DNA of 45,627 nt from an uncultured Anaeromyxobacter sp. (GTDB lineage: Bacteria > Myxococcota > Myxococcia > Myxococcales > Anaeromyxobacteraceae). A program made the translations under genes and the position numbers. The stretch covers positions 1-45,627 of the forward strand of contig CAIQRS010000266.1 in NCBI GenBank assembly GCA_903874275.1, given 5' to 3'. Below are positions 207-41,318 of this stretch, one piece after another; the first letter of the stretch is position 1, and each line of letters starts with the position of its first letter. Under the pieces are notes generated by a model that was not told where the DNA came from, did not search any database, and saw nothing but the letters and a program-made list of their open reading frames with translations.

Positions 207-1852
<1,646 letters not shown>

Positions 1853-1888
1853 GATTGCCCCGGAGCCTATGCGAGGAACGGGCCGGGA

Positions 1889-2710: not shown

Positions 2711-2717
2711 GGGCGGG

Positions 2718-2723
2718 AGTCTA
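2718..2723 (-). promoter_or_regulatory. candidate -10 box (TAGACT) of the TPR gene
   Basis: TAGACT ends seven bases before the GTG at 2710, with no ribosome-binding site between. It is one of several such arrangements in the window suggesting leaderless transcripts. Confidence 0.35.
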
Positions 2724-2761
2724 CTCCAATGGAGTCCCGGGGCCGCCCCGGGAAAGGCGCC

Positions 2762-7356: not shown

Positions 7357-7486
7357 CGAGGTGCGGGAATTGCCGTGCATGGACGTTGACGGTTAGCACC
7401 CGGGCCGCGCCGCTTCAAGGCGCGCTTCCCGAGGTCGCGCAATTGCCCGGGTCGCCGGTAGGCGGGTACGATGCGGCCCAGACCCG

Positions 7487-20054: not shown

Positions 20055-20510
20055 ATGGCTCCGCGACCGCCCCCACAGGGGCCCCGGATGTTCACCGTCG
20101 AAGAGGCGAACGACCTCGTTCCCGACCTGGAACTGGCCTTCGGCCACCTGGGCCGGCTGCGCGGCGAGGCCAGCGTCCTCGTCGAGGCGCTGGGGGGAGG
20201 GGCGGCCGCGATGGAGATCCTGAACGGCCAGGCTCCCGGGCCGGGGCTCGAGCCGCACGCCCTGCGCTTCAAGACCCTGGTCGAGGAGATCAACGGCGTC
20301 GTCGAGCAGGTGAACGAGCTGGGCTGCCTCGTGAAGGACATCGACGCCGGGCTGGTGGACTTCTACGGGATCCAGGAGGGGGAGCCGATCTTCCTCTGCT
20401 GGCAGTTCGGGGAGCCGGCCGTGGCCCACTGGCACCCGGTCGAGGAGGGCTTCGCGTCCCGGCAGCCCATCGAGGGGGTGTCGATCGAGCCCCCGCCGTT
20501 CCCGAACTGA
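20055..20510 (+). CDS. DUF2203 family protein
   Basis: 151 residues. It begins after a proline-rich leader with FTVEEANDLVPDLELAFGHL and ends with GLVDFYGIQEGEPIFLCWQFGEPAVAHWHPVEEGFASR, both hallmarks of DUF2203 proteins. It is a soluble, largely helical protein; the family function is unknown. It is transcribed divergently from ffh. Its TGA overlaps the ATG of the downstream lipase-like gene by one base (TGATG), suggesting coupled translation. Confidence 0.9.
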   Translation: MAPRPPPQGPRMFTVEEANDLVPDLELAFGHLGRLRGEASVLVEALGGGAAAMEILNGQAPGPGLEPHALRFKTLVEEINGVVEQVNELGCLVKDIDAGLVDFYGIQEGEPIFLCWQFGEPAVAHWHPVEEGFASRQPIEGVSIEPPPFPN

Positions 20511-21700
20511 TGTCTGATGTCCGGATGCGAATCGCGAATCCATGCGCGGCGCTGGTCCTGGTGGCCGTCCTCGGCTGCGCCGGCCCCATCCGCAAGCCCG
20601 ACGCCTTCTACACCCCGCCCTCGCCCATCCCGGCCGGCAAGCCCGGGGACGTGCTGCGCGTGGAGCCCGCCGACGGCGCCCCGGACGGCGCCCGGGCCTG
20701 GCGCATCCTCTACCGGTCCACCGGGATGAAGGGGGAGCCCGAGGCGGTGTCGGCCGTGCTCGTCGTCCCCGACGCCCCGGCGCCGGAGGGAGGGCGGAGC
20801 GTGGTGGCCTGGGCGCATCCCACCACGGGCGTGGTCCCGGACTGCGCGCCGTCCCTGCAGGCGAGATGGCGCAAGACCATCGCCGGGCTCGACCTCATGG
20901 TGAAGGCCGGGTGGGTCGTGGTGGCCACCGACTACCCCGGCCTGGGCACGCCCGGCGTGCACCCCTACCTGGTCGGGGCCAGCGAGGCCCGGGCCGTCGT
21001 GGACTCGGTGCGGGCTGCACGCAACGTGAAGGAGGCGGCCGCCGGGCGCCGGTTCGCGGTGTGGGGCCACTCGCAGGGCGGGCACGCCGCGATCTTCACC
21101 GGTCAGCTCGTCGGGCAGCTGGCCCCGGAGCTCGAGCTGGTGGGGGTGGCCGCCGCTGCGCCCGCCACCGACCTCGTGAAGCTCCTCCAGTCCGACCTGG
21201 GCACGAAGCTCGGGAACGTGCTGGCCGCCGAGGCGCTCTGGTCCTGGTCGCGGGTCTACGGCGCGCCCCTCTCGGGCGTGCTGGTCCCGGACGCGATCGG
21301 GGTGGTGGACCGGGTGGCCGCCGACTGCATCCGGGACGGGCGCGAGGGGGTGGTGGCGTTCCACGACGCGGCCCCGCTCCGCGATGGTTTCCTCTCCGTG
21401 AACATCACCGGGACCGAGCCCTGGGCCGGCGTCATGAGGGCGAACTCGGCGGGGGGCAAGCCCCTGGCGGCTCCGCTCTTCGTCGCCCAGGGGACGAACG
21501 ACGACGTGGTCCGCCCCGCGGTCACGGCTCTCTGGGCTGGCGGGGTCTGCGCCCAGGGGACGGCGGTGCGCTACCTGGCGGTACCGGACGAGAACCACTT
21601 CCTGGTGGCGTTCCACACCGCCGATCAGGCCGTGGCCTGGATGAGCGACCGCTTCGCCGGCAAGGCGGCTCCGGACGACTGCGTGCGCGGGACGAAGTAA
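20510..21700 (+). CDS. secreted lipase-like alpha/beta-hydrolase lipoprotein
   Basis: 396 residues. A signal peptide ends in a lipobox (VLGC, Cys23). The catalytic domain resembles the secretory lipase (LIP) group of alpha/beta hydrolases: nucleophile elbow GHSQG with Ser188, a likely acid in GTNDDVV (Asp331 or 332) and a likely His363 in DENHF. A DYPGLG motif at 141-146 is also typical. It probably hydrolyses esters or lipids at the cell surface; the substrate is not predictable. Its start overlaps the DUF2203 stop codon. An in-frame ATG five codons downstream would give the same signal peptide. Confidence 0.88.
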   Translation: MSDVRMRIANPCAALVLVAVLGCAGPIRKPDAFYTPPSPIPAGKPGDVLRVEPADGAPDGARAWRILYRSTGMKGEPEAVSAVLVVPDAPAPEGGRSVVAWAHPTTGVVPDCAPSLQARWRKTIAGLDLMVKAGWVVVATDYPGLGTPGVHPYLVGASEARAVVDSVRAARNVKEAAAGRRFAVWGHSQGGHAAIFTGQLVGQLAPELELVGVAAAAPATDLVKLLQSDLGTKLGNVLAAEALWSWSRVYGAPLSGVLVPDAIGVVDRVAADCIRDGREGVVAFHDAAPLRDGFLSVNITGTEPWAGVMRANSAGGKPLAAPLFVAQGTNDDVVRPAVTALWAGGVCAQGTAVRYLAVPDENHFLVAFHTADQAVAWMSDRFAGKAAPDDCVRGTK

Positions 21701-21799
21701 GGCCCCCCCCGGTCACGCAAGGAGCGTTGTCAAAAGGCGGTCTCTCGGCCAGGCTCCACCCGAGGGGCCGCGGTTCCGCGGTTCGAGGGGGGGTCGTCC

Positions 21800-22603
21800 A
21801 TGAGGCGCTGGGTCCTGTTCCTGGCCGTGTCCGCCGTCTTCGCCGGGTCCGCCTTCGCGGAGCAGCCCGGCTCCAAGAAGCGCAGGCCGCTGCCGCCCGA
21901 GTTCGGGCGCGTGATCATCAACAACACCTCGGAGAAGGCCGGCATGGCCGCGGTCTCCTTCGACCACTGGTACCACCGGGCCAAGTACACCTGCCGCGTC
22001 TGCCACGTGGACGTGGGCTTCGCCATGAAGCCGGGCGCCACCGGCATCAAGGCGGCCGACAACCAGGCCGGCTTCTACTGCGGGGCCTGCCACAACGGGA
22101 AGCTCGTGGTGGACGGCCGCACCGTCTTCGAGTCCTGCGGGAAGGCCCTCATCGGGGAGAACCGGCAGGCCTGCCTGCGCTGCCACTCGGTGGGGAAGAA
22201 CGTCCCCCCCTCCATCGACTTCAAGGCCTTCACGAAGAACCTGCCGGTCGGCCGGCTGGGCAACGGCGTGGACTGGGAGAAGGCGGAGGAGGCTGGCCTC
22301 ATCAAGCCGTCGGATTTCCTGGAAGGGGTGTCCATCCCGCGCCAGCCCATGACCGCCCAGAAGGACTTCGCGCTCACGGCCAAGCTGCAGGGGATGCCGG
22401 AGATCATCTTCTCCCACAAGAAACACACGGTCTGGAACGGCTGCGAGCTCTGCCACCCGGAGATCTTCGTGGGCGTGAAGAAGGGAGCCACCAAGTACTC
22501 GATGGTGGAGATCTTCGACGGCAAGTACTGCGGCGCCTGCCACGTGACGGTGGCCTTCCCGCTGACCGACTGCGGCCGCTGCCACACGAGGCCCGTCCAG
22601 TGA
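21800..22603 (+). CDS. periplasmic hexaheme cytochrome c (c3/c7-type)
   Basis: 267 residues with a Sec signal peptide cleaved after AFA20. Six CxxCH motifs lie at residues 65, 94, 125, 215, 244 and 258. The spacing 65/94 and 215/244 (29 each), and similar flanks (FDHWYHRAKYTC against FSHKKHTVWNGC), show an internal duplication of a three-heme c7-like unit. His residues at 56, 59, 206 and 209 are probable distal ligands. It should carry electrons in the periplasm, likely in anaerobic respiration. Start ATG 21800 follows a G-rich stretch. It is the first gene of a three-gene overlapping operon, with a paralogue as third gene. Confidence 0.95.
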   Translation: MRRWVLFLAVSAVFAGSAFAEQPGSKKRRPLPPEFGRVIINNTSEKAGMAAVSFDHWYHRAKYTCRVCHVDVGFAMKPGATGIKAADNQAGFYCGACHNGKLVVDGRTVFESCGKALIGENRQACLRCHSVGKNVPPSIDFKAFTKNLPVGRLGNGVDWEKAEEAGLIKPSDFLEGVSIPRQPMTAQKDFALTAKLQGMPEIIFSHKKHTVWNGCELCHPEIFVGVKKGATKYSMVEIFDGKYCGACHVTVAFPLTDCGRCHTRPVQ

Positions 22604-22923
22604 GTCGGGCGCGAGGATGGCTGGCCGCCTCGGTCCTCGGCGTGGCCGTGGCGGCGGTCGCCCTCCCGGGGCCGGTCGCGCTGGCCCAGGGGCAGGGCGC
22701 GCCGGCGCAGGACTGGAAGAAGGAGTTCGAGGAGGTCTGCGCCAAGACCCAGGACGCGATGGCGCTCCCCCTGAAGGAGCTGGAGTCCCTGGTCGCCCGC
22801 TGCGACAAGCTCAAGCCCACCATCGAGAAGCTCGACGAGTCCCAGCGGAAGGTCTACGCGCGGCGGCTCAAGGTCTGCCGCGACCTCTACCAGTTCGTCA
22901 TCGAATCCCGCGTGAAGGAATGA
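22600..22923 (+). CDS. small exported hypothetical protein
   Basis: 107 residues from GTG 22600, which overlaps the stop of the upstream cytochrome by four bases (GTGA). A signal peptide (…LGVAVAAVALPGPVALAQ) leads into a 75-residue helical domain with three cysteines (EEVCAKTQ, ARCDKLK, LKVCRDLY). There is no CxxCH, so it binds no covalent heme. Its position between two hexaheme paralogues and its coupled translation suggest a partner or chaperone of the cytochromes in the periplasm. I do not recognise a family. Confidence 0.82.
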   Translation: MSRARGWLAASVLGVAVAAVALPGPVALAQGQGAPAQDWKKEFEEVCAKTQDAMALPLKELESLVARCDKLKPTIEKLDESQRKVYARRLKVCRDLYQFVIESRVKE

Positions 22924-23714
22924 CCGGCGTGGACGGGCTCCGGCGCCTCGCCCTGGCGGTGCTCCTGGCGGCCCCGACGGCGTCGGCGGGCGTGAGCTTC
23001 GTGCCGCCCCAGCGGTACGGCCAGGTCGAGTTGTCGAGCCGGTCCTACGCGGCCAAGGTCCCACCGGTGGTCTTCGACCACTGGCGCCACCGGGCCCGCT
23101 TCACCTGCCGCCTCTGCCACGTGGACGTGGGATTCGCCATGTCGGCCGGACAGACCGAGATCTCCGCCTCCACCAACCGCTCCGGGTATCACTGCGGCGC
23201 CTGCCACAACGGCAAGACCGTGGTGGGTGGGACACCGGTCTTCGCCTCGTGCTCGGCGGGGCGCAACGTGGACGAGGCCCCGCGCTGCCGCCGCTGCCAC
23301 GCCACGCCCGACCCCGCCCGGCTCAAGAAGGACTACGAGGCGTTCGCCGCGAAGCTCCCGAAGAAGGGGGTGGCGGGCGGCGTGGACTGGGAGGAGGCGG
23401 AGTCGAAGGGGCACATCCGGCCCCTCGACTTCCTGGAGGGGGTCTCCATCCACCGCGCCCCGCTCCGGATGGACAAGGAGATCGTCATCGCCTCGAGCGG
23501 CTGGATGACCGACGTGCTCTTCTCGCACCGGAAGCACTCGGTGTGGAACGGCTGCGAGGTCTGCCACCCGGAGATCTACCCGAGCACGAAGAGCGGGACC
23601 AGGAAGACCTCGATGATCCAGATCTCGGCGGGGGATTCCTGCGGTGTCTGCCACACCAAGGTGGCGTTCCAGATCGCCGAGTGCCAGCGCTGCCACGTGA
23701 ATCCGGTCAAGTAG
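22920..23714 (+). CDS. periplasmic hexaheme cytochrome c, paralogue of the upstream cytochrome
   Basis: 264 residues, signal peptide cleaved near ASA23. Six CxxCH motifs at 63, 92, 123, 212, 241 and 255 have nearly the same spacing as in the first cytochrome, and segments such as CHVDVGFAM, CGACHNGK and DFLEGVSI are shared. The pair therefore arose by gene duplication. The ATG overlaps the upstream TGA (ATGA). The stop TAG is also the first three bases of a tRNA-like 26-bp repeat that marks the edge of the following island. It is probably a periplasmic electron carrier working with its paralogue. Confidence 0.95.
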   Translation: MTGVDGLRRLALAVLLAAPTASAGVSFVPPQRYGQVELSSRSYAAKVPPVVFDHWRHRARFTCRLCHVDVGFAMSAGQTEISASTNRSGYHCGACHNGKTVVGGTPVFASCSAGRNVDEAPRCRRCHATPDPARLKKDYEAFAAKLPKKGVAGGVDWEEAESKGHIRPLDFLEGVSIHRAPLRMDKEIVIASSGWMTDVLFSHRKHSVWNGCEVCHPEIYPSTKSGTRKTSMIQISAGDSCGVCHTKVAFQIAECQRCHVNPVK

Positions 23715-23737
23715 GGCCGCCCGGAGTCGAACCGGGA
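23712..23737 (-). repeat. tRNA 3'-end fragment (putative att remnant)
   Basis: On the minus strand it reads as a T-arm (CCCGG stem, TTCGACT loop, CCGGG stem) plus the 3' acceptor half CGGCCCT and A73. It differs from the tRNA-Leu copy at two adjacent positions within the T-loop (AG against GA on the plus strand). No matching 5' tRNA half can be found upstream on that strand, so it is a fragment and not a gene. Confidence 0.65.
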
Positions 23738-23880
23738 CCCAGGTGTGCGGGAATCCGCGGCGATCGGGATAACGCGACGCGTCATCCCCGGCGAAGGGGT
23801 CAGCCTTTCCTGCACCCATCCGGGGACCTTGTTTCACTGGGAGGGGAGGCGCACCATCCGTCGAAGGACGGGGGGTCCCC

Positions 23881-24375
23881 ATGGCGAACGAGGCAAGGAA
23901 GCTCACTCGTCGTGAAGTGCTGGCCCGCAGTTACTCGGTCGCGGTGACGAGCCTGCTGGCAGGGGCCGCCGCCAGCGGTTGCGGGGGGAGCGATCCGCCC
24001 GCCGCGGAGGCGAGCAAGCTCCTCTGCGACAACACCTGCACCACGCACGGGAACAGCCGGTGCGAGGACGGGGGAACGGGCTCCACCGCTTCCACCTGCA
24101 ACACCGGCACCGACTGTTCCGACTGCGGGGTCCGATACGGGCCGGAGGGGTATTCGAACCAGTATTCGAATGGCTACTCGAATTACTCCAACGCGTACTC
24201 CAACACCTATTCGAATACCTATTCGAATTACTCGAACACCTATTCGAACACCTACTCGAATTATTCCAATTACTACTCGAATTACTCGAATTACTACTCG
24301 AATTACTACAATACCGGCTACTACAACTATTACAACACGCCGAGCTACTACAACTACTTCGTCAACTCCTGGTGA
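23881..24375 (+). CDS. putative RiPP-like precursor: Tat-type lipoprotein with YSN repeats
   Basis: 164 residues in three parts. (1) Residues 1-34: a Tat-like export signal with TRREVLARS and a hydrophobic stretch, ending in a lipobox (AASGC, Cys34). (2) Residues 45-83: a Cys-rich segment with Cys at 49, 53, 61, 73, 79 and 82, of the form CxxxC…C…C…C…C, probably disulfide-bonded outside. (3) Residues 91-164: a low-complexity region of Tyr, Ser, Asn, Thr and Gly without any charged residue, with 14 Tyr-Ser-Asn triplets and 25 tyrosines, ending in W. Codons there are AT-richer than in neighbouring genes. Four radical SAM genes follow with overlapping starts, so I infer that the repeat region is their substrate. 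A surface or structural protein modified by those enzymes is the likeliest product. Confidence 0.85.
   Translation: MANEARKLTRREVLARSYSVAVTSLLAGAAASGCGGSDPPAAEASKLLCDNTCTTHGNSRCEDGGTGSTASTCNTGTDCSDCGVRYGPEGYSNQYSNGYSNYSNAYSNTYSNTYSNYSNTYSNTYSNYSNYYSNYSNYYSNYYNTGYYNYYNTPSYYNYFVNSW
24151..24303 (+). repeat. tandem YSN-coding repeats
   Basis: Fourteen TAY-TCN-AAY triplets, separated by zero or one variable codon (Q, G, A, T or Y). Synonymous variation (TAT/TAC, TCG/TCC, AAT/AAC) is mixed along the array. The repeats therefore are not fresh perfect duplications and the peptide sequence appears conserved rather than the DNA. Confidence 0.9.
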
Positions 24376-26063
24376 TGGGCCGCCCGGTTCGGTTCCTGTT
24401 CGTCCACGCGTGGCAGGGATTCAGCCTCGCCGAGTGGTCCCTGCGCGAGGCGCTCACGGCAGGGGTTCGCTGCACGCCCGCCGAGTTTCATGCGGTCGAC
24501 CTCTGGCGCGACCCGTCGCCGCTGGGCGATCTCCTGCCCCGCACGGTCGCCGCGCTCCAGCCGGACCTGGTGGGCTTCACCTGCCACGCCTGGTCCCTGT
24601 CGCGCATGCTGGAATGTGCCCGCTGCGTCAAGGACGTGGAACCGCAGGCGCGCGTCGTCCTCGGCGGTCCGCAGGTGAGCGATCCGCGGTCCGCGGAGGC
24701 GGTGCTCCGCGCGGCTCCGGCCGTCGACTTCGTGGTCCGGGGCCAGGGCGAGGGTCCCCTCGCGCGGCTGGTCGAGGCCATCCGAGAAGGACGGCCGCCG
24801 GATGACGTCCCATCCCTGAGCTGGAGGGACGGCACGCGCGTCGTCCACGCCCCGGTGGACCAGGATCCGTGGCGGCGAGGGCCCATCTTCCACGCAGGCA
24901 ATCCGCTGGCGCTGTCCCTGGAGCACGCCTTGCAGGCGTCCTACGAGACCACCCGGGGCTGCCGGGGCGCGTGCACGTACTGCGCCTACCGGACGACTCC
25001 GCGCGGGGAACTGGATCTCGGCCTCGTGAAGGACGAGCTGGCGTTCCTGACGGCGATGCGCATCCAGCATCTCCGGATCTGCGACGCGGAGTTCGGAGGC
25101 ACGAGGGAGCGCGCCAAGGACATCCTCCGCCACCTCTCGCGGGTGAACGCCGAGACGAGCGTGAAGGTCCACCCGGTGCTCGCGCACGTCGACGGGGAGT
25201 ACGTCGACCTCCTTCGCGCGGCCGGCGCCGTGCCGACGTCGATCGGCGTCCAGTCCACGAACCCCGGTGCGCTGGCGGCGGTTCGCCGGGGCTCCGCCCT
25301 CCGCAGGGAGGAGGCCGTGGAGCGACTGCTCCGTGCGTTTCCCGGGACACCCGCCGACGTCATCGTGGGCCTTCCCGGGGACGGCGTGACCGGCCTGGCG
25401 AGGACCCTGCGGGAGGTGCTCGACGCCGGGTTCTCCGCCGTGAATCTCTACCGGCTCGTGGCCTTCCCGGGGACGACGATGGCCGAGGACGTGAGCGCGA
25501 GCCTGGGGGGCGGGCCGGTGACCCACTCTGGCCAGGGACTCATCCTCACCTCCGCCTCCTTCCCGCGCAGCGTCCTGAGGGACGTGGCCCTGCTCACCGC
25601 GGCGGCCGAGGTGGCGGCGCCCCTCGTCCTCACCCGGCGTGCCATCACGCCGCGGCGACCGGGATCCGCTCTCCTCGACGTGGCGCACCGGATCCCGGCT
25701 GCGGACCTGCTCGTCCTGCAGGGCGCCATGTCGTCGTTCCGCCCCGCTCAGCTCCTCGCGCGGACCACGCTCCTCGCCGCCGTGGCCAGGGACCTCGCAG
25801 GGCCCGAAGCCGGGATCGAGGCCCTCGCCCAGGACGTCGCGGAGATCCTGCTCCGGCAGGCGAAGGCCGAGGGCCGTCGGTCCTTCACGTGGAGCGATCC
25901 GGGAGGGTGGGTGCGGGAGGTGGACCAGGTGGCGCTGCCCGCGCGCGGGGGGATCGTCCTCGACCTCGCGGAGGGAAGACTCCGCCCGGGGATCGCGACG
26001 GGGGAGCGCGTGCTCGCCATGGCCGCGGATCTGTCTCCCGTATCCACCGAGGCGACCGCATGA
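24375..26063 (+). CDS. B12-binding-type radical SAM enzyme
   Basis: 562 residues. The N-terminal part (about 5-140) has the Rossmann-like cobalamin-binding-domain pattern (LQPDLVGFTCHAWSLSRM … VVLGGPQVSDPRS … VDFVVRGQGEGPL). A radical SAM core follows with CRGACTYC (Cys196, 200, 203) coordinating the 4Fe-4S cluster. The C-terminal 200 residues resemble the extended region of the B12-radical SAM family with DUF4080-like helices, though I cannot name it. Enzymes of this type methylate unactivated carbons or do other radical chemistry. Its ATG overlaps the precursor stop (TGATG at 24373-24377), so the two are made together. Whether it binds B12 must be tested. Confidence 0.88.
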   Translation: MGRPVRFLFVHAWQGFSLAEWSLREALTAGVRCTPAEFHAVDLWRDPSPLGDLLPRTVAALQPDLVGFTCHAWSLSRMLECARCVKDVEPQARVVLGGPQVSDPRSAEAVLRAAPAVDFVVRGQGEGPLARLVEAIREGRPPDDVPSLSWRDGTRVVHAPVDQDPWRRGPIFHAGNPLALSLEHALQASYETTRGCRGACTYCAYRTTPRGELDLGLVKDELAFLTAMRIQHLRICDAEFGGTRERAKDILRHLSRVNAETSVKVHPVLAHVDGEYVDLLRAAGAVPTSIGVQSTNPGALAAVRRGSALRREEAVERLLRAFPGTPADVIVGLPGDGVTGLARTLREVLDAGFSAVNLYRLVAFPGTTMAEDVSASLGGGPVTHSGQGLILTSASFPRSVLRDVALLTAAAEVAAPLVLTRRAITPRRPGSALLDVAHRIPAADLLVLQGAMSSFRPAQLLARTTLLAAVARDLAGPEAGIEALAQDVAEILLRQAKAEGRRSFTWSDPGGWVREVDQVALPARGGIVLDLAEGRLRPGIATGERVLAMAADLSPVSTEATA

Positions 26064-27031
26064 ACGTCCTCGTCACCAGCAACTGCAATCGGCGCTGCCC
26101 GTACTGCTTCGCCGCCTCCCGGATCTCGTTCGGCGACGGGCCCCCCCGCCCAGCTCCCCGCGTCATCTCGAGGGACGACTTCCGCGAGGCCCTGGCCTTC
26201 GCCAAGCGTGGAGGCGTGCCGGTGCTGGGAATGCTCGGGGGCGAGCCGTCGCTCCACCCCGAGTTCGTCGACCTGGTGCAGGAGGTCCTCCAGGAGGGCG
26301 TCGAGGTCAAGGTCTTCACGAACGGGATCTGGCGGGAAGGGGACGTCGAGCGCCTGAGCGAACGGGTGAAGGACGCCGGCCCCCGCCTGCGGCTCGTGGT
26401 GAATACGAACCATCCCGACATCACGCCGGAGCGGGAGCAGCAGGCCCAGCGACGCCTCTTCCGCGCCCTGGGGAGGTTCTGCACCCTGAGCTACAACATC
26501 TACCAGGCCGAGCCCGCGATGCTCTTCCTGCCGGACCTGATCCTCGAGTACGGGCTGGTCCGCCACGTCCGGCTCGGGCTCGCCCAGCCGCTCGCCGACG
26601 GGGAGAGCAGTCACGTCCCGGTCGAGGACTATTCGCGGGTCGCCCCGCACATCCTCGACCTGGCGCGGCGGTGCGACGAGAGCGACATCACGCTCGGCTT
26701 CGACTGCGGCTTCACGCTCTGCATGTTCACCCCCGAGGAGGTCGGGCAGCTCCAGCTCGCCGGGTGCGCGGTTCGAGCGACCTGTGGCCCTGCCGTCGAC
26801 GTGGGGACGGACCTCTCCGTGTGGGCCTGCTTCCCGCTGGCAACGCTGGACCGCGGTGCACGGCTCTCCGAGTTTCCCGACATGCGTTCGCTCACGACCT
26901 ATTTCGACGAGCGCTTCCGCCGTCTCTACAGGACCGGTGCGATGGAGAAGTGCGTCGACTGCCGCCACCTGCGACGGGGGCAGTGCTCGGGCGGCTGCGC
27001 CGCCCACGTGTATCGGAGCGTGAACCCATGA
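26060..27031 (+). CDS. radical SAM/SPASM-type enzyme
   Basis: 323 residues. The radical SAM cluster motif CNRRCPYC (Cys9, 13, 16) is close to the N-terminus, followed by GMLGGEPSLHPEF, the GGEP-type motif for SAM binding. The C-terminal third has many cysteines, ending in CVDCRHLRRGQCSGGC (Cys298, 301, 309, 313), as in SPASM domains that hold auxiliary 4Fe-4S clusters. SPASM enzymes commonly install thioether or carbon-carbon links in ribosomal peptides. The ATG overlaps the previous stop (ATGA). There is no RiPP-recognition element at the N-terminus, so substrate recognition may come from elsewhere. Confidence 0.9.
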   Translation: MNVLVTSNCNRRCPYCFAASRISFGDGPPRPAPRVISRDDFREALAFAKRGGVPVLGMLGGEPSLHPEFVDLVQEVLQEGVEVKVFTNGIWREGDVERLSERVKDAGPRLRLVVNTNHPDITPEREQQAQRRLFRALGRFCTLSYNIYQAEPAMLFLPDLILEYGLVRHVRLGLAQPLADGESSHVPVEDYSRVAPHILDLARRCDESDITLGFDCGFTLCMFTPEEVGQLQLAGCAVRATCGPAVDVGTDLSVWACFPLATLDRGARLSEFPDMRSLTTYFDERFRRLYRTGAMEKCVDCRHLRRGQCSGGCAAHVYRSVNP

Positions 27032-28923
27032 CCGGCGCACCCGCAGCCCGTCCGGGGTCGACCGCCCTGACCGTGATCTTCAAGGGGACCAACGCCTGCA
27101 ACGGGGGCTGCGAGTTCTGCTCGGTGGGATTCGGGGGCCGCCGCCGCATCGGGTGGGAGGCGTTCGAGGAACTCGCGGTCCAGCTCGAGCGGATGGTGGA
27201 AGGCGCGGGCCTTCGTCGAGTGGACTTCACGTTCCACGGGGGCGAGCCGACGCTGCTCGGCCCCGAGTTCATCGACCGGGCCTGCCGCAGGCTCGAGCGG
27301 ATTCCCGTGGATGTCGCCTTCTCGATGCAGAGCAACCTCCTCGCCGTCACCGACGATCTCATCGCCGTCGCGCGGGCGCACCGGATCCAGATCGGTTCGT
27401 CGATCGATCCCATCGGATCGGGGCGCAGGACGCGGTTCGGAGGCGACGCCTTCCCGCGCTGGCTGGAAGGGTACGAGCGGCTGGTCCGGGCGGGCTTCGG
27501 CGTCGGCGCGATCTTCGTGGTGACGCGCGCCGCGCTGGGGCGGGAGAGGGAGGTCTACCGCGCCGCGGAATCGCTCGCCGTCTTCGGAAGCCCCCCCGGG
27601 CTCCAGGTGAATCCGATCTACCCCCAGGGCGAGGCGGGATCCCGGCAGCTCATCACGCCGGAGGAGCTCGGGCGATTCCTCGTGAATACCTGGCGTCTCT
27701 GGGAGGATTCGGGCCGTTCGGTCCAGGTCTCCCCGCTGAGCTCGCTCGCGAGGTGGTTCGAGGAGGGACCCGGCGAAGGCGTGCCGCTGTCCTGCGCGTT
27801 CGCAGGTGACTGCTCCCGAAGCCATGTCGGGGTGGACCACGATCTGCGCGTCGCCGGCTGCGGTCGGCGTCTCGACAGCGGTGCCTTCCTGGGGATGCTC
27901 GGGAACGCCGAGATGCACGCGATCCTGGGCGCGAGCGCCGAGAAGTCGCTCGTCGCCGGTCGCGCATCCCGCCTGGCGGCGGGCGCCTGCCGCGCGTGTC
28001 GCTTCTTCCCGCTCTGTCACGGCGGGTGCCCGGACGACGCGGCGCTGGCGGGCGACATCGCCGGTCGTACGCCGTGGTGCGAGGGCTACCGGGCCCTCTT
28101 CGAGGCCATGGAGGCGGGGGTGCGATGCCAGGGACCGCTCGCGCGACCTGCCGGGAGGGTGCGCCAGACGCTCCTGTTCGCCTCCCTGGATGCTTCCAGC
28201 CCCGACCCGGAGCAAGGGCCGAACGAGGAGCTCGAGCGCTGGCTTCTCCCCTCCGAGGACGGGAGCGCCCTGCGCTTCGACGCGGGACTCGAGAGGATTC
28301 TCGCGAGCCGTGCGGCACGGATCGTGATCTGGATCCACTCCAGGAACCTCCGCTCGCTGACGATGTGGCGGGACGTCCTGCGGGACCGGCGCGTCGCCGT
28401 GGGAGTGTTCGACGCGGGATCGGCTCTCCCGGCCGTGCTGAACGCGTTGAATGGCCTGGGAGCGCCGATCCTCCTCGACATGGCCTCCGAGGTGGCACGG
28501 GAAGGTGGCTCCGCGCGGCTGCAGGCGGCCTGGCAAAGGTTCCTCTCCGACCCGCTCTGGCACGTCCCGATCCAGCCGTTCGCCGCCATGCTCCGCGCAG
28601 GCGTGGAGCGTGTGCAGGCACCGCTCGCGGACTGGCGCGGCCTGTCCCGCGAGGGGTGTCGGGTCGTCGTCGCCGAAGGTGCCGGAGACGCGTTCCGGCG
28701 ACTGGCGCCGGACCTCGCCGGCCGCGAGGTCCGCAGCCAGGGCGCGGCGCGCTGGATGGCGGAGCACAGGGGTTGCATCCGATGCGACGCGTTCTCCCTG
28801 TGCGGAGGGGCGCTCGCGGAAGGTCCAGCCGGGTGCGCCGCGCCGCTCGCCGACCTCGTCCATTCGATCGGCGCACGCTCCGCCGAGATTCGCGAGGTCC
28901 TCCGGGAGATGCCGGCCGCATGA
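27028..28923 (+). CDS. radical SAM/SPASM enzyme with a large C-terminal extension
   Basis: 631 residues. Residues 1-370 form a complete peptide-maturase-like enzyme: CNGGCEFC (Cys24, 28, 31), FHGGEP at 69-74, and a SPASM region ending with CRACRFFPLCHGGCPDD. A second unit of about 260 residues follows. It is alpha/beta in character and ends in CIRCDAFSLCGGALAEGPAGC, again a SPASM-like cysteine cluster, but without its own CxxxCxxC motif. The extension might be a degenerate second radical SAM/SPASM module or a precursor-binding domain. It overlaps both neighbours by ATGA. Confidence 0.88.
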   Translation: MTGAPAARPGSTALTVIFKGTNACNGGCEFCSVGFGGRRRIGWEAFEELAVQLERMVEGAGLRRVDFTFHGGEPTLLGPEFIDRACRRLERIPVDVAFSMQSNLLAVTDDLIAVARAHRIQIGSSIDPIGSGRRTRFGGDAFPRWLEGYERLVRAGFGVGAIFVVTRAALGREREVYRAAESLAVFGSPPGLQVNPIYPQGEAGSRQLITPEELGRFLVNTWRLWEDSGRSVQVSPLSSLARWFEEGPGEGVPLSCAFAGDCSRSHVGVDHDLRVAGCGRRLDSGAFLGMLGNAEMHAILGASAEKSLVAGRASRLAAGACRACRFFPLCHGGCPDDAALAGDIAGRTPWCEGYRALFEAMEAGVRCQGPLARPAGRVRQTLLFASLDASSPDPEQGPNEELERWLLPSEDGSALRFDAGLERILASRAARIVIWIHSRNLRSLTMWRDVLRDRRVAVGVFDAGSALPAVLNALNGLGAPILLDMASEVAREGGSARLQAAWQRFLSDPLWHVPIQPFAAMLRAGVERVQAPLADWRGLSREGCRVVVAEGAGDAFRRLAPDLAGREVRSQGAARWMAEHRGCIRCDAFSLCGGALAEGPAGCAAPLADLVHSIGARSAEIREVLREMPAA

Positions 28924-30041
28924 CCTCCGGGCGCCGATCGACCGGCACGGGACTCTTCGTGGTCCTGCTGCCGACGTTCGAGTGCAACCTGGCCTGCGAC
29001 TACTGCTTCGAGGACCATCCTCGTGGCAGGTGGACCGCGGACGAGGCGGGACGGGTCCTCGCCCAGGTCTTCCGGTTGTCCGCGTCGGAGGGGTTCGACG
29101 AGGTTCGCCTCCACTGGCAGGGCGGCGAGGCGCTCCTTCTCGGCGAGGACTTCTGGACGCGCGTCCTGGCGCTTGCCGAGGACATCGCGGGCGAGTTCGG
29201 GATCGCGATCGACCAGCGAATGCAGACCAATCTGACCCTCTACGAACCCTGGCTCGCCCCGCTCGCCCGACGCCACTTCGGGGGCCAGATCGGGACATCC
29301 TACGATGGCACGGGGGAGCGCCGCACGCTCGGCGGAGGGGTGGACGATTTCGAGCGCCGGTTCTGGCGGGCCTTCCGGGAGGCGACGGACGCGGGAGTCG
29401 AGATCGGAGTCCTCGCGGTGGTGCGCCCACAGGCGATCCGCGAGGGACCGGCTCCCTACCTCGCCCGGCTACGGGAACGGGGGATCGCACGGCTCCGCCT
29501 CAGCCTCCCGTTCGCGACGTCCACCGGAAGGGGAGCCTGGCTGGAGCCCGGACCGGCGGGCCGATTCCTGGCTGGCGCCTACCGGACGTGGGCTCGTTCG
29601 GGCAAGGACCGATGGATGCAACTGCGTCCCTTCGGCTTCCTGGAGAGCCGACTTTCGGGGCAGGCGCCGACCGAGCCCGGGCTGTGCAGCTTCTCCGGGA
29701 ATTGCGCCGACGGTGGCCTGGCCGTCGATCCGGGTGGAGGCGTGTGGCTGTGCGATAGCTGCATCGGCACCCGGGCGTCCTACGGGAATGCGCTCTCTGG
29801 CGAGCTTCGCGAGGCATGGCGCGGGGCCGGCCGCGCGGGAACGCGCCACGCCTGTGCGCAGCTCGTCGGCGCCCGGTGCCTCGAATGCCGGTGGCTGCCC
29901 GTCTGCAGTGGCGGGTGCCTCGTCCGTTCGACGCCCGACGACGATGGCGCGCTCGTGGACCATTACTGTGACGCCTACCGGGAGCTGTTCCATGCCGTCG
30001 AGCAGGAGCTTGCGGGGGTCCGGGCCTCACCCCCACCCTAG
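28920..30041 (+). CDS. radical SAM/SPASM-type enzyme
   Basis: 373 residues with CNLACDYC (Cys22, 26, 29), WQGGEALLLGEDF as the GGE motif, and a C-terminal SPASM-like set of cysteines (CSFSGNC, CDSC, CLECRWLPVCSGGC). The layout is that of anaerobic-sulfatase-maturase-like peptide modifiers. It is the last gene of the five-gene overlapping cassette that starts with the YSN-repeat precursor. Its stop overlaps by four bases the stop of the convergent glycosyltransferase gene. The reaction on the YSN region is not predictable from the sequence alone. Confidence 0.9.
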   Translation: MTSGRRSTGTGLFVVLLPTFECNLACDYCFEDHPRGRWTADEAGRVLAQVFRLSASEGFDEVRLHWQGGEALLLGEDFWTRVLALAEDIAGEFGIAIDQRMQTNLTLYEPWLAPLARRHFGGQIGTSYDGTGERRTLGGGVDDFERRFWRAFREATDAGVEIGVLAVVRPQAIREGPAPYLARLRERGIARLRLSLPFATSTGRGAWLEPGPAGRFLAGAYRTWARSGKDRWMQLRPFGFLESRLSGQAPTEPGLCSFSGNCADGGLAVDPGGGVWLCDSCIGTRASYGNALSGELREAWRGAGRAGTRHACAQLVGARCLECRWLPVCSGGCLVRSTPDDDGALVDHYCDAYRELFHAVEQELAGVRASPPP

Positions 30042-31006
30042 GACCCGCGCATGGCAAGCAGCTCCCGGGCAGCGGAGAGGATCGCCTCGGGCGCGAAGCG
30101 GAGCGGGACCCCGGGAGGTCCGTCCCGGCCCGGCAGTACGCGCTTCCGGGTCGAAGGCGCGAAAGGACCCCAGGAACCATCTCCCTTGCCCGGCGCGAGC
30201 AGGCCGACCACGGGAGTCCCTACGGCCGCAGCGAGGTGAAGGGGGCCCGACTCGCCCCCGACGAGGAGGGAGCAGGCCTCGAGGTGAGCGCCGAGGTCGT
30301 CGAGGCGGGGATCGTAGTCGACGATCCGGGTGTCGACCTCGCGAGCGAGCGCCGGAGGCACGTCGTCGCCGATGGCGACGGTCCGCGCTCCGAGCGCCTC
30401 GCGCAGAAGGTGGGCCGCCCGGGCGACGTCGCCAGGGTCCGGATTCTTGCCGGCATCCCGCTCCCGGGTCCGGCAGTGGAGCGCGATGACCGGTCGACCG
30501 TCCTCCCCGCGAAGTGCCCCCGCCCATGCGGCCGCTTGCGCCCGGGCGTCCGGCGTCGGCACGAACCGAGGATAGATGGCCCCTCCCGCGAGTTCGGCCA
30601 GGTGGGAGTAGGGTTCGACGAATCTGCAGCCTTCCGCCTCACGTGCGACTCCCGCCCCTGGAGGACCGTGGCAGATGGTCTCGACCTGCCCCGCCCATCC
30701 GAAGGCCGCCAGGCCCGAACGCTGGACGCGCTGGGCCAGGGGGACGACATCGTCCGGGGGAAGCTGGTCCAGAACCCATACCTCGTCGGGGGCGATCGGG
30801 TACCGGCGGGCGTCGTACTCGTCATCGTGAAACGGGATGACGGCGACGATCCGCTTCCTGCCGGCCGACCTCTCGATGGCAGCGCGGACGATCGCCTCGA
30901 ACACGATCCGATCGCCCAGGCCGCCGTGGACGAAGAGCAGGAGCGTCGTGCCCTCGGGCGCGAATCGCTCCGTGCGGACGGTTCTCCGGAGGCGAAGATG
31001 CTCCAC
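30038..31006 (-). CDS. GT9-family glycosyltransferase (heptosyltransferase-like)
   Basis: 322 residues from GTG 31006. It has two Rossmann-like halves. The N-terminal half opens with LLLFVHGGLGDRIVFEAIVRA, and the C-terminal half carries GGESGPLHLAAAVGTPVVGLLAPG at about 250-273, the GT9 nucleotide-sugar signature as found in ADP-heptose:LPS heptosyltransferases. It is probably a cytoplasmic-face enzyme adding a sugar to a glycolipid or perhaps a protein. It lies in the island and converges on the radical SAM operon, so any link with the YSN precursor is speculative. TAGGGT lies eight bases before the GTG and there is no Shine-Dalgarno sequence. Confidence 0.85.
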   Translation of the reverse strand: MEHLRLRRTVRTERFAPEGTTLLLFVHGGLGDRIVFEAIVRAAIERSAGRKRIVAVIPFHDDEYDARRYPIAPDEVWVLDQLPPDDVVPLAQRVQRSGLAAFGWAGQVETICHGPPGAGVAREAEGCRFVEPYSHLAELAGGAIYPRFVPTPDARAQAAAWAGALRGEDGRPVIALHCRTRERDAGKNPDPGDVARAAHLLREALGARTVAIGDDVPPALAREVDTRIVDYDPRLDDLGAHLEACSLLVGGESGPLHLAAAVGTPVVGLLAPGKGDGSWGPFAPSTRKRVLPGRDGPPGVPLRFAPEAILSAARELLAMRGS

Positions 31007-31116
31007 GGGGGAAAACCCTATCCCGGAGTCGGCCCGTGGAGAAGCGCGAGGTGGGCAGGGGCACCCGTTCGCTTCCCATTGCACCAGGCCGCCCGAGGCC
31101 CCGCATGGATGGCGCG

Positions 31117-31607
31117 TCAATTGAAGACGAGCACGCTCGTCTGGCCCGAACCATTGTAGTCCCACGTTCCGTCGAACATCTCGACTTGGAACTGCTGACG
31201 AAGATCTTGTTGCTGGACACAACCGTGACACTGGCGGTCGGCGCCACGAAGCGCCACGTTCCGTCGCTGACCAGGGCAGGGGTGTCGCCTTCCATGTAGG
31301 CCCATCCCACGACTCCGGAAGCCCCCGTGGGCCCCTGCGGACCGGTTGGTCCCGGTGCACCCGCCGGTCCGGTATCCCCCTTGGTACCGGCCGCCCCGTT
31401 GCAAACGTACTCGACGGCGCCGCCGTTCACCGTCACGGAGATGCCGCCCGTCGGTCAATGACTGTCGCCAACGGGAAGGACGACCCTGGCCAGCGTCTGG
31501 ACGTCGGGGGCAGCCGGTGGTGGATTGGACGAGCTCGTCTTGTCGGTCGAACTGCAGGCGGTGATCCCAAGGGAAAGAAGGAAGGCCAGAGGCGTTCGAA
31601 ATGTCAT
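31117..31607 (-). pseudogene. collagen-like lipoprotein gene, broken by a stop and a frameshift
   Basis: ATG 31607 opens a lipoprotein signal (MTFRTPLAFLLSLGITACSS). The frame stops at TGA 31455-31457 after VLPVGDSH, then continues in the same frame as PTGGISVTVNGGAVEYVCN and a collagen-like Gly-X-Y run (GTKGDTGPAGAPGPTGPQGP). Near 31190 a one-base shift is needed to reach the plausible end VEMFDGTWDYNGSGQTSVLVFN with its stop at 31117. Two lesions in 490 bp indicate a pseudogene, or two sequencing errors. The intact ancestor would have been a small surface lipoprotein with a collagen-like spacer. Confidence 0.7.
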
Positions 31608-31640
31608 GGAGTCCCCCGTATCGGATGGCCGGCTCACCAC

Positions 31641-31820
31641 GTCTCCGGGCTGGTGTCGGGGGGTTGACGCTGGGTGAACTTCTCGGTGCGGTTCGACAGG
31701 CAGCCCCCCCCCGTCACCATCGAGGACCGGTTCTCGCGCAGCGCGTCTAGATGGCGATCAATTCGGGCGCGGGAAGCCGCTTCGGCTTCCCCCTTCACGA
31801 ACCGCAAGAACCCAAAACCT
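31641..31820. other. non-coding stretch between pseudogene and tRNA-Leu
   Basis: 180 bp with a run of C at 31704-31711. No convincing ORF, hairpin terminator or RNA gene was found. Confidence 0.5.
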
Positions 31821-31846
31821 TAGGGCCGCCCGGGATCGAACCGGGA
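31821..31846 (-). repeat. tRNA-Leu 3' end, partner of the 23712-23737 repeat
   Basis: This is the functional copy of the putative attachment sequence, the last 26 nt of tRNA-Leu(UAA). Similarity with the other copy stops sharply on both sides. Confidence 0.6.
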
Positions 31847-31906
31847 TGCTGCTCTCGCAGCAGGGGATTTTAAGTCCCCCGCGTATGCCAGTTCCGCCAC
31901 GGCCCC
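31821..31906 (-). tRNA. tRNA-Leu(UAA)
   Basis: 86-nt class II tRNA on the minus strand. The 7-bp acceptor stem is GGGGCCG/CGGCCCU (first pair G-U), with A73. The anticodon stem-loop GGGGA-CUUAAAA-UCCCC gives anticodon UAA. A variable arm with GCUGC/GCAGC pairing follows, and a T-arm with UUCGAUC loop. CCA is not encoded. Its 3' end is duplicated at 23712-23737. Confidence 0.95.
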
Positions 31907-31959
31907 AGGGGATCGACCGTACCCCGGGCTAGCCTGAAGTCCACTTCGATGTCTACAAG

Positions 31960-38400: not shown

Positions 38401-39846
38401 TCACAAAGCTTCCGTCGGGGAGTGGCTCAGCCTGGTAGAGCACTTGGTTCGGGACCAAGGGGTCGCAGGTTCAAATCCTGTCTCCCCGACCATCACCTGG
38501 CCCCGCGATTCCCTAGGAGTCGCGGGGCTTTCCATTTGGTCCCCCGCAGTTCCGGAAGCCGTCCAGGCGGCGCTCCCGGGCGACCTTTCGGAGGATTGCA
38601 GTTCCGTGCAGTCCGCGCCCCCGGCGGACGTGGTGCCCGAGGGCGTACCGAAGGCGCCGGTGAGGCCGGCTCGGACGTCCTTGGTGTCGAGGTGGCCGTA
38701 GGTGTGAATGGTCAGGCGCACGTCGGAGTGGCGCAGGGCCTTCTGCGCGACGGCCGTCCCGGCCGCCCTCACAACCGCCGTGCCGAAGCTGTGTCGCGTG
38801 TCGTGGAACCTGACATGCCTGGGGATCGGCTTGGACCACGCGGTGGGCTTCCCGCAGCGCGGGCAGGTCGCGGGGGCGGTGGGGTCCTGGCGTTGCTCGC
38901 GCCAGCCACAGCGCCAGGCCCTGCAGCGATGCTCGTAGCCTCCGAGGAGGCCGGCTGCCGCGATGGCGCGACGCAAGATCTTCCCCAGCCGGAGTTCCCG
39001 CGGCTGCATCGAGCCGTCAGCCTTCGGGAAGACGAAGACCCCCGACGACTTCATCGCCTCCCTCAGGAATGGGACGAGCTGGGGCACGATGGGGATGCGA
39101 GCGACCTTGTTGTCCTTGGTCCGCTCGGCGTCCCAGGAGCGATGAACTCTGAGTTCCAGTGCGTCGAAGTCCAAGTCGGCCTTGAGGAGGCCGAAGATCT
39201 CGCCTTCCCGCAGGCCCCCATACACTGCGGTGGCGACGGGCCCTCGCCAGGTGGAGGGCGTCTTGTCGAGGACCGGCTCGAACTCCGGGACGGTGAGGAT
39301 GTTCCTGGCCGGCTCTTCTTGCTTGCGGCGGCTGACGTCGGCGACCGGGTTGGTGCGGCCCGCCCACGGGCCACCTTCCTTGCGCGCAAACTCGTAGATG
39401 TTGTGCATGAAGCCCCGGAGGTGGTTCAGGGACCTGCCCGAGAGCTCCCCCTTGGCCTCCTTCTCGGTGAGGACCCCCTCGATCTTGACGGTCGTGACCT
39501 CCCGGAGCGGGAGACGACCGAGCTTGGGGCTGAGGTGCTTCTTGAGGAAACCGCGGATTGCCGGCGACTTCAGCGCCTGGCCGTGACTCTCCCACCACCA
39601 GTCGACGAGCTGGTCGAAGAGCATGTCGAGCGATGCGGTCGGCAGCGGCTCGAGTCCCTGACGCTGGCGCCTGGCCTTGCCCTCGTAATCGACGAGGCGG
39701 TTCCGACCCTCCCGCTCGGCGCCCTTCTCGGTGAGGGGCTTCCCGTCCTTCCCGTTTCTGGGCAGCGTTTCCTGCCGCTGGCGGCCGCTCCCGTCGATCC
39801 ACTGGATGACCGTCCGGCCGCTCTTCCGCTTCATCACCGAGCCCAT
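38401..39846 (-). CDS. int: tyrosine recombinase / integrase of the tRNA-Pro element
   Basis: 481 residues. SAM-like core-binding domain at about 65-160, then a catalytic domain with Arg213 (GGLREGEIFGL), His348-x-x-Arg351 (HDTRHSFGT), His373 and Tyr383 (IHTYGHLD). A four-Cys zinc-ribbon-like insert (CRAWRC and CPRC, about 308-331) sits between the first Arg and the HxxR box. It catalyses site-specific recombination between tRNA-Pro and the element's attP. The last 30 residues (from Val453) are read antisense through the tRNA and the left flank, so the integrated gene has a host-derived tail. AGGAGG precedes the ATG by six bases. Confidence 0.95.
   Translation of the reverse strand: MGSVMKRKSGRTVIQWIDGSGRQRQETLPRNGKDGKPLTEKGAEREGRNRLVDYEGKARRQRQGLEPLPTASLDMLFDQLVDWWWESHGQALKSPAIRGFLKKHLSPKLGRLPLREVTTVKIEGVLTEKEAKGELSGRSLNHLRGFMHNIYEFARKEGGPWAGRTNPVADVSRRKQEEPARNILTVPEFEPVLDKTPSTWRGPVATAVYGGLREGEIFGLLKADLDFDALELRVHRSWDAERTKDNKVARIPIVPQLVPFLREAMKSSGVFVFPKADGSMQPRELRLGKILRRAIAAAGLLGGYEHRCRAWRCGWREQRQDPTAPATCPRCGKPTAWSKPIPRHVRFHDTRHSFGTAVVRAAGTAVAQKALRHSDVRLTIHTYGHLDTKDVRAGLTGAFGTPSGTTSAGGADCTELQSSERSPGSAAWTASGTAGDQMESPATPRESRGQVMVGETGFEPATPWSRTKCSTRLSHSPTEAL
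38416..38492 (+). tRNA. tRNA-Pro(CGG)
   Basis: 77 nt including encoded CCA. The acceptor stem is CGGGGAG/CUCCCCG. The anticodon stem-loop CUUGG-UUCGGGA-CCAAG gives anticodon CGG (CCG codon), and the T-loop is UUCAAAU. Its 3' half is repeated perfectly at 45439-45485, so it is the integration site of the element to its right. Confidence 0.96.
38447..38493 (+). repeat. attL core (47 bp, within tRNA-Pro)
   Basis: Runs from the anticodon stem-loop to one base beyond CCA and is identical to 45439-45485. The flanks differ on both sides (G against C before, C against T after). Confidence 0.95.
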
Positions 39847-40094: not shown

Positions 40095-41318
40095 TCACGG
40101 GCCCACCGCCCTTCCGGGCAACTGAGGCGGTGCTGCCCGGTCGCACAGGATGAGCTTCCGCAGGTAGTCGAGGTCGGTCCTGGGGAGGGCGTCGAGGTCA
40201 AATCTGCAGTGGCCGGCTCGCTGGTGGAGGTCGATGGCTTCGTAGGCGTCCGAGAGCGCCTCGTCCACGCGCTCCAGGGAGTCGCGCAGGAGGAGCAGCT
40301 CGCGCTCGTCCACGGCCAGGGCGAACCTGGGCGGGGGAGGGGACGGCACCGTGGCTGCCGCCGTCGGGGGCTTCGAGGGGGACGGCGCAGCAGCAGGAGG
40401 CCGGCTGGCCGGGACGGTGGAGGCCAGTCGGTCCGGGAAGTACCCGAGGAGCCTACGAGCGGCCTCGGCGAAGGTGAGGACGATGACCTCGAACGCTCGG
40501 TGCTCCATTCGGGCCCTGACCTCCGGGAAGCTCGTGCCGTCGAGGCATGCCTTCACCGCATGCTCCACCCGCCGCCTTCGATCGAGGGAATGGACGACGA
40601 AGACGAGGCGCGGAGCGAACCCGTCCGGGAAGGCGCGAACGTACCAGCTGGCCTTGCGGTCGTCGGAGAGGACGTCGAAGTACTGCCGGTATCGCCGCAC
40701 CTTGGAGACGATGGCCCCGGTTCGCTCCGGATGGGCGGTGACGATGCTCTGCGTGCCCGTCTCGGCCTCGATGAAGAGCCGGCGGCCCCGGCCCGGGACC
40801 TCCAGGATGGCGTCGGGCTTGAGGACGGCCTGGTGGGACTCCCCGAGGTGGTGGCCCAGGGCGCGGAACTGGAGGACCTCGTCGTTCTCGGCGCGCCAGC
40901 GGAAGGGCAACTCCGCGAGCAGCGCCGTCTCGGACCGCCTGAGCGAGAGGACGAGCTCGAGGAGGACGTCGTTGAGGAGCAGCGTGTGCTCCAGGAACCG
41001 GGCGCCGACGTCGCTCGCCGGGGCCGGGAGCCAGGGGAGGCCCGGGGTGACAAGGCTGCGGCCGTAGGGCGTGAGCGCCCAGACCGGGACGCTCGTGCCC
41101 TCGTAGCGCCGGTAGTGCAGGCGGCGCAGGCAGGCCCCCTCACCAGGGCGGCCACCGGGCAGGCAGAGCTTCGCGAGGCGGCGGTAGACGAGCTTCTTGC
41201 TGCGGTCGAGCGCGATGAGCCGGTGGACCTGGTCGGCCGATGTGTAGCGGGCGATGCCGACGTAGGCGAGGAGGGCGCGATCGCGATCGGTGAGGACGGC
41301 TCCCTTGACGTTCGGCAT
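40095..41318 (-). CDS. replication-relaxation family protein
   Basis: 407 residues. The N-terminus (LTDRDRALLAYVGIARYTSADQVHRLI … KLVYRRLAKL) is a winged-helix segment, followed by WALTPYGRSLV and a larger nuclease-like alpha/beta domain (ILEVPGRGRRLFIEAETGTQSI). This order matches the replication-relaxation proteins of mobile elements and plasmids. A C-terminal Pro/Ala-rich linker leads to a helical end. It probably initiates or regulates replication of the excised element. A GGAGG Shine-Dalgarno sequence lies seven bases before the ATG. Confidence 0.72.
   Translation of the reverse strand: MPNVKGAVLTDRDRALLAYVGIARYTSADQVHRLIALDRSKKLVYRRLAKLCLPGGRPGEGACLRRLHYRRYEGTSVPVWALTPYGRSLVTPGLPWLPAPASDVGARFLEHTLLLNDVLLELVLSLRRSETALLAELPFRWRAENDEVLQFRALGHHLGESHQAVLKPDAILEVPGRGRRLFIEAETGTQSIVTAHPERTGAIVSKVRRYRQYFDVLSDDRKASWYVRAFPDGFAPRLVFVVHSLDRRRRVEHAVKACLDGTSFPEVRARMEHRAFEVIVLTFAEAARRLLGYFPDRLASTVPASRPPAAAPSPSKPPTAAATVPSPPPPRFALAVDERELLLLRDSLERVDEALSDAYEAIDLHQRAGHCRFDLDALPRTDLDYLRKLILCDRAAPPQLPGRAVGP

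Follow-up and report, generated by a model that had tools for sequence, protein, structure and literature searches.

A Tyr-Ser-Asn repeat protein encoded with four radical SAM enzymes in an Anaeromyxobacter tRNA-Leu island: a candidate type of modified surface protein

In this study, we found that a 45.6 kb stretch of DNA from an uncultured Anaeromyxobacter sp. (contig CAIQRS010000266.1, 72% GC; source genome 5.07 Mb), hereafter the window, contains a cassette of five genes, A to E, encoding a Tyr-Ser-Asn (YSN) repeat protein and four radical S-adenosylmethionine (SAM) enzymes. Judged by sequence comparison, this mobile cassette looks like a real and undescribed type of modified surface protein. 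We consider it fairly probable that A to E form one operon making a post-translationally modified surface protein. More tentatively, and with rather less than even confidence, we propose the first family exported by the twin-arginine translocation (Tat) route and anchored by lipid in which a long YSN tail is stapled at each repeat and C-methylated through the action of four radical SAM enzymes. Such a product would be a rigid surface polymer, a chain of cyclophanes, and would serve a structural, metal-binding or redox role rather than act as a secreted antibiotic.

The cassette and its precursor protein

The main features of the cassette are as follows.

23881-24375, plus strand: gene A, 164-residue precursor (substrate) protein, from its open reading frame, the YSN shuffle test and homologues before B or D in genomes G195 and G196
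23881-23982, plus strand: signal region of A, with a TRREVLA twin-arginine motif, a hydrophobic stretch and lipobox-like ASG-Cys34, from the sequence and a layout common to four precursors
24025-24129, plus strand: Cys-rich module of A (CDNTC...GTDCSDCG, residues 49-83), from a pattern scan and weak Myxococcota matches
24151-24303, plus strand: 14 YSN repeats spaced by 3 or 4 residues, presumed modification sites, from the sequence and shuffle tests
24304-24372, plus strand: Tyr/Asn-rich tail of A ending in NSW, an end shared with the G195 precursor
24375-26063, plus strand: gene B, B12-binding radical SAM enzyme, probable C-methyltransferase, from PF02310, PF04055, likeness to PDB structures and a G195 orthologue
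26060-27031, plus strand: gene C, radical SAM enzyme (MoaA/twitch-like) with four conserved C-terminal cysteines, from PF04055 and orthologues
27028-28923, plus strand: gene D, radical SAM/SPASM enzyme (residues 1-366) with a C-terminal extension (367-631), the proposed crosslinking enzyme, from NCBIfam, orthologues and a structure model
28126-28920, plus strand: extension of D, about 260 residues, with CxxC...CGG, a separate gene in the G196 YxD cassette and modelled with low confidence
28920-30041, plus strand: gene E, radical SAM/SPASM enzyme with the Cys-Asp pair of anaerobic sulfatase maturases, from NCBIfam and alignment

As an initial annotation of this DNA had described, the five genes are consecutive on the plus strand (23881-30041), and start and stop overlap at all four junctions: the ATG of B at 24375 (alternative GTG at 24372) meets the A stop at 24375, the ATG of C (26060) precedes the B stop (26063), that of D (27028) the C stop (27031), and that of E (28920) the D stop (28923). 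The same annotation was right in giving the first product 164 residues and 14 YSN triplets (we count exactly 14), all four enzymes a CxxxCxxC motif, and one of them, B, a B12-binding N-terminus, since B matches both the B12-binding and the Radical_SAM models of Pfam. Its count of three SPASM-type enzymes stands for D and E, which match the NCBIfam SPASM domain above cut-off, and in part for C, which has the C-terminal cysteines (298, 301, 309 and 313, all conserved) but does not reach the model. It had missed the Tat/lipobox-type signal and the Cys-rich module of A, as well as the C-terminal region of about 260 residues in D.

The YSN triplets of A lie within residues about 91-141. All 14 fall in the last 74 residues; when these residues were shuffled 100,000 times, the count averaged 1.4 and never exceeded 8, and thus the excess is not due to composition. 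Furthermore, the repeat codons are mixed (TAC/TAT, TCG/TCC, AAT/AAC), which indicates that the repeat is maintained at the protein level and is not a fresh expansion of DNA. Pfam and NCBIfam searches with A gave zero matches. With A as the query, no relatives were found among viral contigs, and the Myxococcota gave weak matches, apparently to the Cys-rich module, for which no Pfam or NCBIfam model was found.

By inspection, all four precursors known to us (that of the window and three from the genomes described below) have an RR motif, a hydrophobic stretch and then a Cys, and no leader of the kind found in ribosomally synthesized and post-translationally modified peptides (RiPPs); three of the four have the Cys-rich module. 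The product of A is therefore probably a Tat-exported lipoprotein, anchored in the membrane via its lipobox Cys. The module itself, CxxTC...CDDGG...GTDCxDCG, is found in precursors and in an unrelated G195 protein (L021, L018, L022 and the window at 24025-24129). No protease, ABC transporter or other export gene was seen in the conserved cassette by Pfam and sequence inspection, and a cleavable leader with a protease or exporter, usual but not universal in radical SAM RiPP systems, is likewise absent from it. Because the precursor has its own export signal and lacks such genes beside it, it is doubtful that the product of A is a RiPP if that term means a small peptide that is set free. Release of a small natural product, with modified repeats cut out by host proteases in the multi-core style of the TVGG-repeat peptide, does have a precedent in TvgA/TvgB, where one radical SAM/SPASM enzyme acts on many repeats (PMC9062424). 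We nevertheless regard it as unlikely, considering that the conserved set holds no gene for proteolysis or export and that the precursor combines an export/lipidation-type signal with a Cys-rich module.

Relatives of the cassette in other genomes

A scan of genome contigs with D, covering about 85,000 genomes, gave three orthologues (L017, L018 and L019; 41-45% identity), all in 'Deltaproteobacteria' metagenome-assembled genomes (MAGs). The D of L017 is full length and includes the extension, and those of L018 and L019 are cut by contig ends. In G195, L017 carries C'-D'-E' with overlaps and order as in the window, followed by opposite-strand frames, and another contig carries A'-B' together and ends inside B'. 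Since the first bases of L017 read like a B' terminus that leads into C', the five-gene order A to E appears to be conserved in G195, split over two contigs. The G195 A' has an RR motif, the Cys module, six YSN and an NSW end like the A of the window, and the B orthologue directly following it is 46% identical to B.

G196 contains two further cassettes. In L018, on a contig of 47% GC, a 240-residue protein with an RR/lipobox signal, two Cys modules and about 30 repeats of YSD/YSE/YNE type directly precedes D. In L044 (minus strand, about 277-3063), a 78-residue peptide with an RR signal, a lipobox-like Cys and YAD/YVD/YGD repeats comes first, followed by a radical SAM/SPASM enzyme that shares 33% identity with D and then by a protein of its own that is similar to the extension of D; this three-gene YxD cassette looks like a minimal version of the system. 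Altogether, precursor and enzyme are encoded together, as in radical SAM RiPP systems, in four pairs from three genomes.

Comparison of the four precursors suggests a common repeat rule, Tyr-x-(Asn/Asp/Glu). The counts of Y-x-[DNE] are 14, 9, 31 and 14, compared to shuffle means of 4.2, 3.6, 8.2 and 3.0, so that Y-x-[DNE], which fits the Aromatic-x-(Asn/Asp/other) core motif of triceptides, is enriched in all four. Substitutions are seen at the middle position (S, A, V, G, N, I), whereas Tyr and the third residue are kept, as would be expected if residues i and i+2 are linked. The initial annotation had proposed that the repeats are the substrate of the enzymes. Conservation of the rule, together with repeat proteins encoded before B- or D-type genes elsewhere, supports this proposal at the level of sequence comparison. 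As to whether precursor homologues occur without the enzymes, Tyr-x-(N/D/E) proteins stand directly before B- or D-type genes at three places in two other genomes. As to co-occurrence within the phylum (195 Myxococcota genomes including that of the window, with D counted above a strict threshold), the YSN-triplet DNA pattern and D are both absent from the 194 other genomes.

These observations bear on the idea that A is an ordinary Tyr/Asn-rich surface protein that is the first gene by chance, with the enzymes acting elsewhere. Tyr-rich low-complexity proteins are common, and the Cys module is also found in unrelated exported proteins. However, repeat proteins of the same rule precede D- or B-type enzymes at three sites that are not linked to one another, the genomes concerned having GC contents of about 47% and 73%, and those 194 Myxococcota genomes lack the YSN pattern; such an accident is thus very improbable.

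The system seems sparsely distributed. No other close D was found in two further samples of the phylum of G195 and G196 (284 and 379 genomes), and the enzyme of the YxD cassette had no relatives in the same 284-genome sample. In plasmid searches, D found generic enzymes of about 27% identity only and the YxD-cassette enzyme found nothing. Several candidate relatives were set aside. The nearest Myxococcota homologue of D is sulfatase-maturase-like and adjoins a sulfatase-like gene, not a repeat protein. In G196, contig C365 has a YSN-like run at its edge, which looks like a short tandem repeat of DNA and could not be assigned to a gene. A cluster in genome G060 (L010, about 7055-12807, minus strand), where a short peptide is followed by a B12 radical SAM enzyme, a further radical SAM enzyme and a ThiF/TOMM-like protein, was judged by inspection to be a different RiPP-like cluster and not a hidden copy of the cassette.

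The four enzymes and comparable systems

None of the four enzymes reaches a curated NCBIfam family cut-off. B matches PF02310 and PF04055 above their cut-offs, and so has the domains of a B12 radical SAM methyltransferase; it resembles KedN5-type and RiPP C-methyltransferases in NCBIfam (all below family cut-off) and the solved structures of TokK and CysS, and is a probable C-methyltransferase by analogy. C and D match Radical_SAM of Pfam, and E is just under the curated cut-off. The orthologues of C in L017 and L019 are 51-54% identical to it and conserve 13-14 cysteines. D and E, 30% identical to each other, score 59-112 bits against sulfatase-maturase, DarE/DarW and DynA models, for which 349-650 bits would be required. 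Against the GrrM, XyeB, FxsB, AmcB and YhhB models, a set that does not include YxdB, their best score is 48.5 bits, with cut-offs of at least 310. The structure model of D is of low confidence (mean predicted local distance difference test score of 58), and anSMEcpe and ChlB, named in the references of PMC12636437 as a multiple cyclophane synthase, are its top matches among solved structures. As a possible degenerate SPASM domain, the extension gave an hhalign probability of only 9.7%, its own models being of low confidence. Weak viperin matches had suggested an antiviral function, which we discarded as superfamily background.

Given the family of the best scores, the cassette could be thought to serve sulfatase maturation or a small-molecule cofactor pathway, with D and E as sulfatase maturases. 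Both match TIGR03942 (E-values of 1e-28 and 1e-30), and the D model is nearest to anSMEcpe. However, the TIGR03942 scores are 100-107 bits with a cut-off of 349, the cassette has no sulfatase, the catalytic Asp position is lost in D (Cys-Gly), and a control maturase from Myxococcota adjoins a sulfatase-like gene rather than a repeat protein. This explanation is largely refuted, and we give it almost no weight.

A stronger rival is that the repeats are modified without a Tyr-Asn crosslink, with methylation by B and with E oxidising the Ser in the middle of the motif, which would become formylglycine or a dehydro residue. The Asp of the Cys-Asp pair in anaerobic sulfatase-maturating enzymes (anSMEs) is catalytic. 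E and its orthologue retain this pair, whereas D orthologues have Cys-Gly-Arg. The middle Ser is present in all 14 motifs of the window and in the YSN copies of G195, that is, in the two known E-bearing cassettes, and in the YxD cassette, where the enzyme carries Cys-Gly-Arg, this position is occupied by Ala, Gly, Val or Ile. E may therefore oxidise Ser. On the other hand, the sulfatase motif C/S-x-P-x-R is absent, there is no sulfatase gene in the cassette, and the enzyme type common to all cassettes is D, not E. Ser oxidation in place of crosslinking is a minority possibility, albeit the best placed of the alternatives, and Ser oxidation by E could coexist with crosslinking.

Among known systems, the closest are the triceptides. 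Enzymes that form three-residue cyclophanes bond an aromatic carbon to the Cbeta of an Asn, Asp, Ser or Arg located two residues further along; in the case of YxdB the bond runs from C3 of Tyr to Cbeta of Asp, and other members connect Trp or Phe with the Cbeta of Asn or Asp (PMC11002830). Like YxdB, XncB, OscB/GrrM and ChlB, the present system has an Aromatic-x-(Asn/Asp) motif, a SPASM enzyme adjoining the precursor and a D model near ChlB. Unlike triceptide precursors, those of the cassette have YSN in up to 14 copies, a Tat/lipobox signal in place of a leader, and a Cys-rich module; its enzymes differ in being four radical SAM proteins including a B12 enzyme, in the extension of D, and in scores far under family cut-offs. 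In a survey of the sulfatase-maturase subfamily, Aro-Xaa-Asn motifs recur and TvgB acts repeatedly on its TVGG repeat (PMC9062424). That system shares with ours a single SPASM enzyme of this subfamily acting many times on a tandem repeat, but it has TVGG and cyclopropylglycine, no Tyr, and oxygenase and transporter genes. Signal peptides are rare among bacterial RiPP precursors and are Sec-type in known cases, and in the Buf2 group about 16% of the proteins are predicted to be lipoproteins (PMC12452194). In bufferins, as here, a signal peptide replaces the RiPP leader, but they use Sec rather than Tat, Cys motifs, and MNIO instead of radical SAM enzymes. We found no system combining Tat with a radical SAM RiPP enzyme in the open-access literature, which misses most subscription papers. 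Of the RiPP-enzyme models, DarE and DynA are among those that D and E match best. Darobactin and dynobactin have short Trp-containing cores with a leader and an exporter, and differ in having no YSN-type repeats and in cut-offs that D and E fall far below. His-Xaa-Ser (Hxs) and GRRM systems also pair a repeat-bearing precursor with radical SAM/SPASM maturases, but the repeat is different and the Hxs/Grr models match the cassette enzymes weakly. The statement that no described family fits thus holds for NCBIfam, where the enzymes stay below family cut-offs, and for NCBIfam and Pfam, where the precursor is unmatched. By sequence, the cassette belongs to none of the modelled families tested and would work most like a triceptide system.

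Based on these likenesses, we propose that D would act in the cytoplasm and bond the ring of each Tyr to Cbeta of the second residue after it (Asn; Asp or Glu in relatives), so that successive three-residue cyclophanes arise along the tail, in the manner of triceptide enzymes. B, a cobalamin-type enzyme, would C-methylate, and E and C may oxidise or crosslink further sites, perhaps Ser. The stiffened protein would then be exported by Tat, lipidated at the lipobox Cys and retained as a surface lipoprotein, not a small peptide; a chain that crosslinks have already made stiff would be well matched to the Tat route. Crosslinking by D and methylation by B are drawn from family knowledge, and the roles of C and E and the surface retention are pure inference.

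Several points weigh against this proposal. The Tat/lipobox assignment was made by eye, with one sub-threshold model match (TIGR01409 TAT signal in the G196 YxD-cassette precursor, G196b: 15.9 bits, cut-off 16.7), and the roles given to B, C and E are guesses. The best scores of D are to sulfatase maturases and DynA/DarE, far under every triceptide-enzyme cut-off. D orthologues are few (three beyond the window), all on MAG contigs, and the link between the two G195 contigs, which do not overlap, is inferred. Finally, L019 has C-D after an unrelated gene and no precursor was found in its genome, nor was a close B found there among the genomes searched.

Genomic setting and implications

The cassette lies between two tRNA-Leu sequences, and three features frame or accompany it.

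23711-23737, minus strand: copy of a tRNA-Leu 3' end, presumed left att-like end of the island, from identity to tRNA ends
30038-31360, minus strand: family 9 glycosyltransferase gene (PF01075), inside the island and convergent with E
31820-31907, minus strand: tRNA-Leu(TAA), right end of the island, from ARAGORN and an empty site in G002

The left copy is identical to 31821-31846 at 24 of 26 positions, the sole such place in the window, and to the tRNA end of the congener G002 at 30 of 30. In G002, the lipase gene (window 20510-21700) is directly followed by this tRNA and the site is empty; other congeners are related but different. With a displaced tRNA end and an empty site in a relative, as is characteristic of tRNA-targeted islands, sequence comparison indicates that the 8.1 kb holding A to E, the glycosyltransferase gene and small frames is an island in tRNA-Leu, which explains the absence of the cassette from all close relatives searched. 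No integrase was recognised among the genes and frames inspected between 23738 and 31820. The glycosyltransferase gene was not found after E in L017 and is not conserved with the cassette. Also inside the island is a collagen-like GxY repeat frame (30825-31436, minus strand; PF01391 just under cut-off), apparently a broken or short gene.

The site as a whole (tRNA-Leu(TAA), 21710-31820) is likely an insertion hotspot in the genus: G002 has nothing there, G003 has other DNA of about 3 kb, and the window has about 10 kb, perhaps from two events in tandem. Just outside the island are two triheme c7-type cytochrome genes (21800-22603 and 22917-23714, plus strand) with relatives elsewhere in the family, in G004 and G005, at 72% DNA identity. 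We do not count them among the genes of the system, because their position is beyond the tRNA-end copy at 23711 and because no cytochrome gene was seen upstream of the G195 cassette. Further along the window, a phage-type integrase gene (38401-39846, minus strand; PF00589) overlaps or abuts tRNA-Pro (38416-38492, plus strand), with a Replic_Relax protein nearby (40095-41318), which suggests a second integrated element.

Most radical SAM RiPPs described so far are short peptides made with a leader and an exporter, and the Tat route can carry an already folded or crosslinked protein. In contrast, the substrate described here seems to be an entire exported lipoprotein bearing as many as about 30 modification motifs, and, as far as sequence comparison indicates, the departure from triceptide systems lies in the nature of the precursor and in the larger number of enzymes. 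The natural variants YSN, YSD/YSE and YAD/YVD/YGD offer a ready test of which residue is read by each enzyme. If the proposal holds, the cassette would serve as a repeat scaffold on which to examine processivity and the sharing of a single substrate between B12 and SPASM enzymes, and, if the crosslinks are real, three-residue cyclophane chemistry would extend from small peptides to surface proteins.

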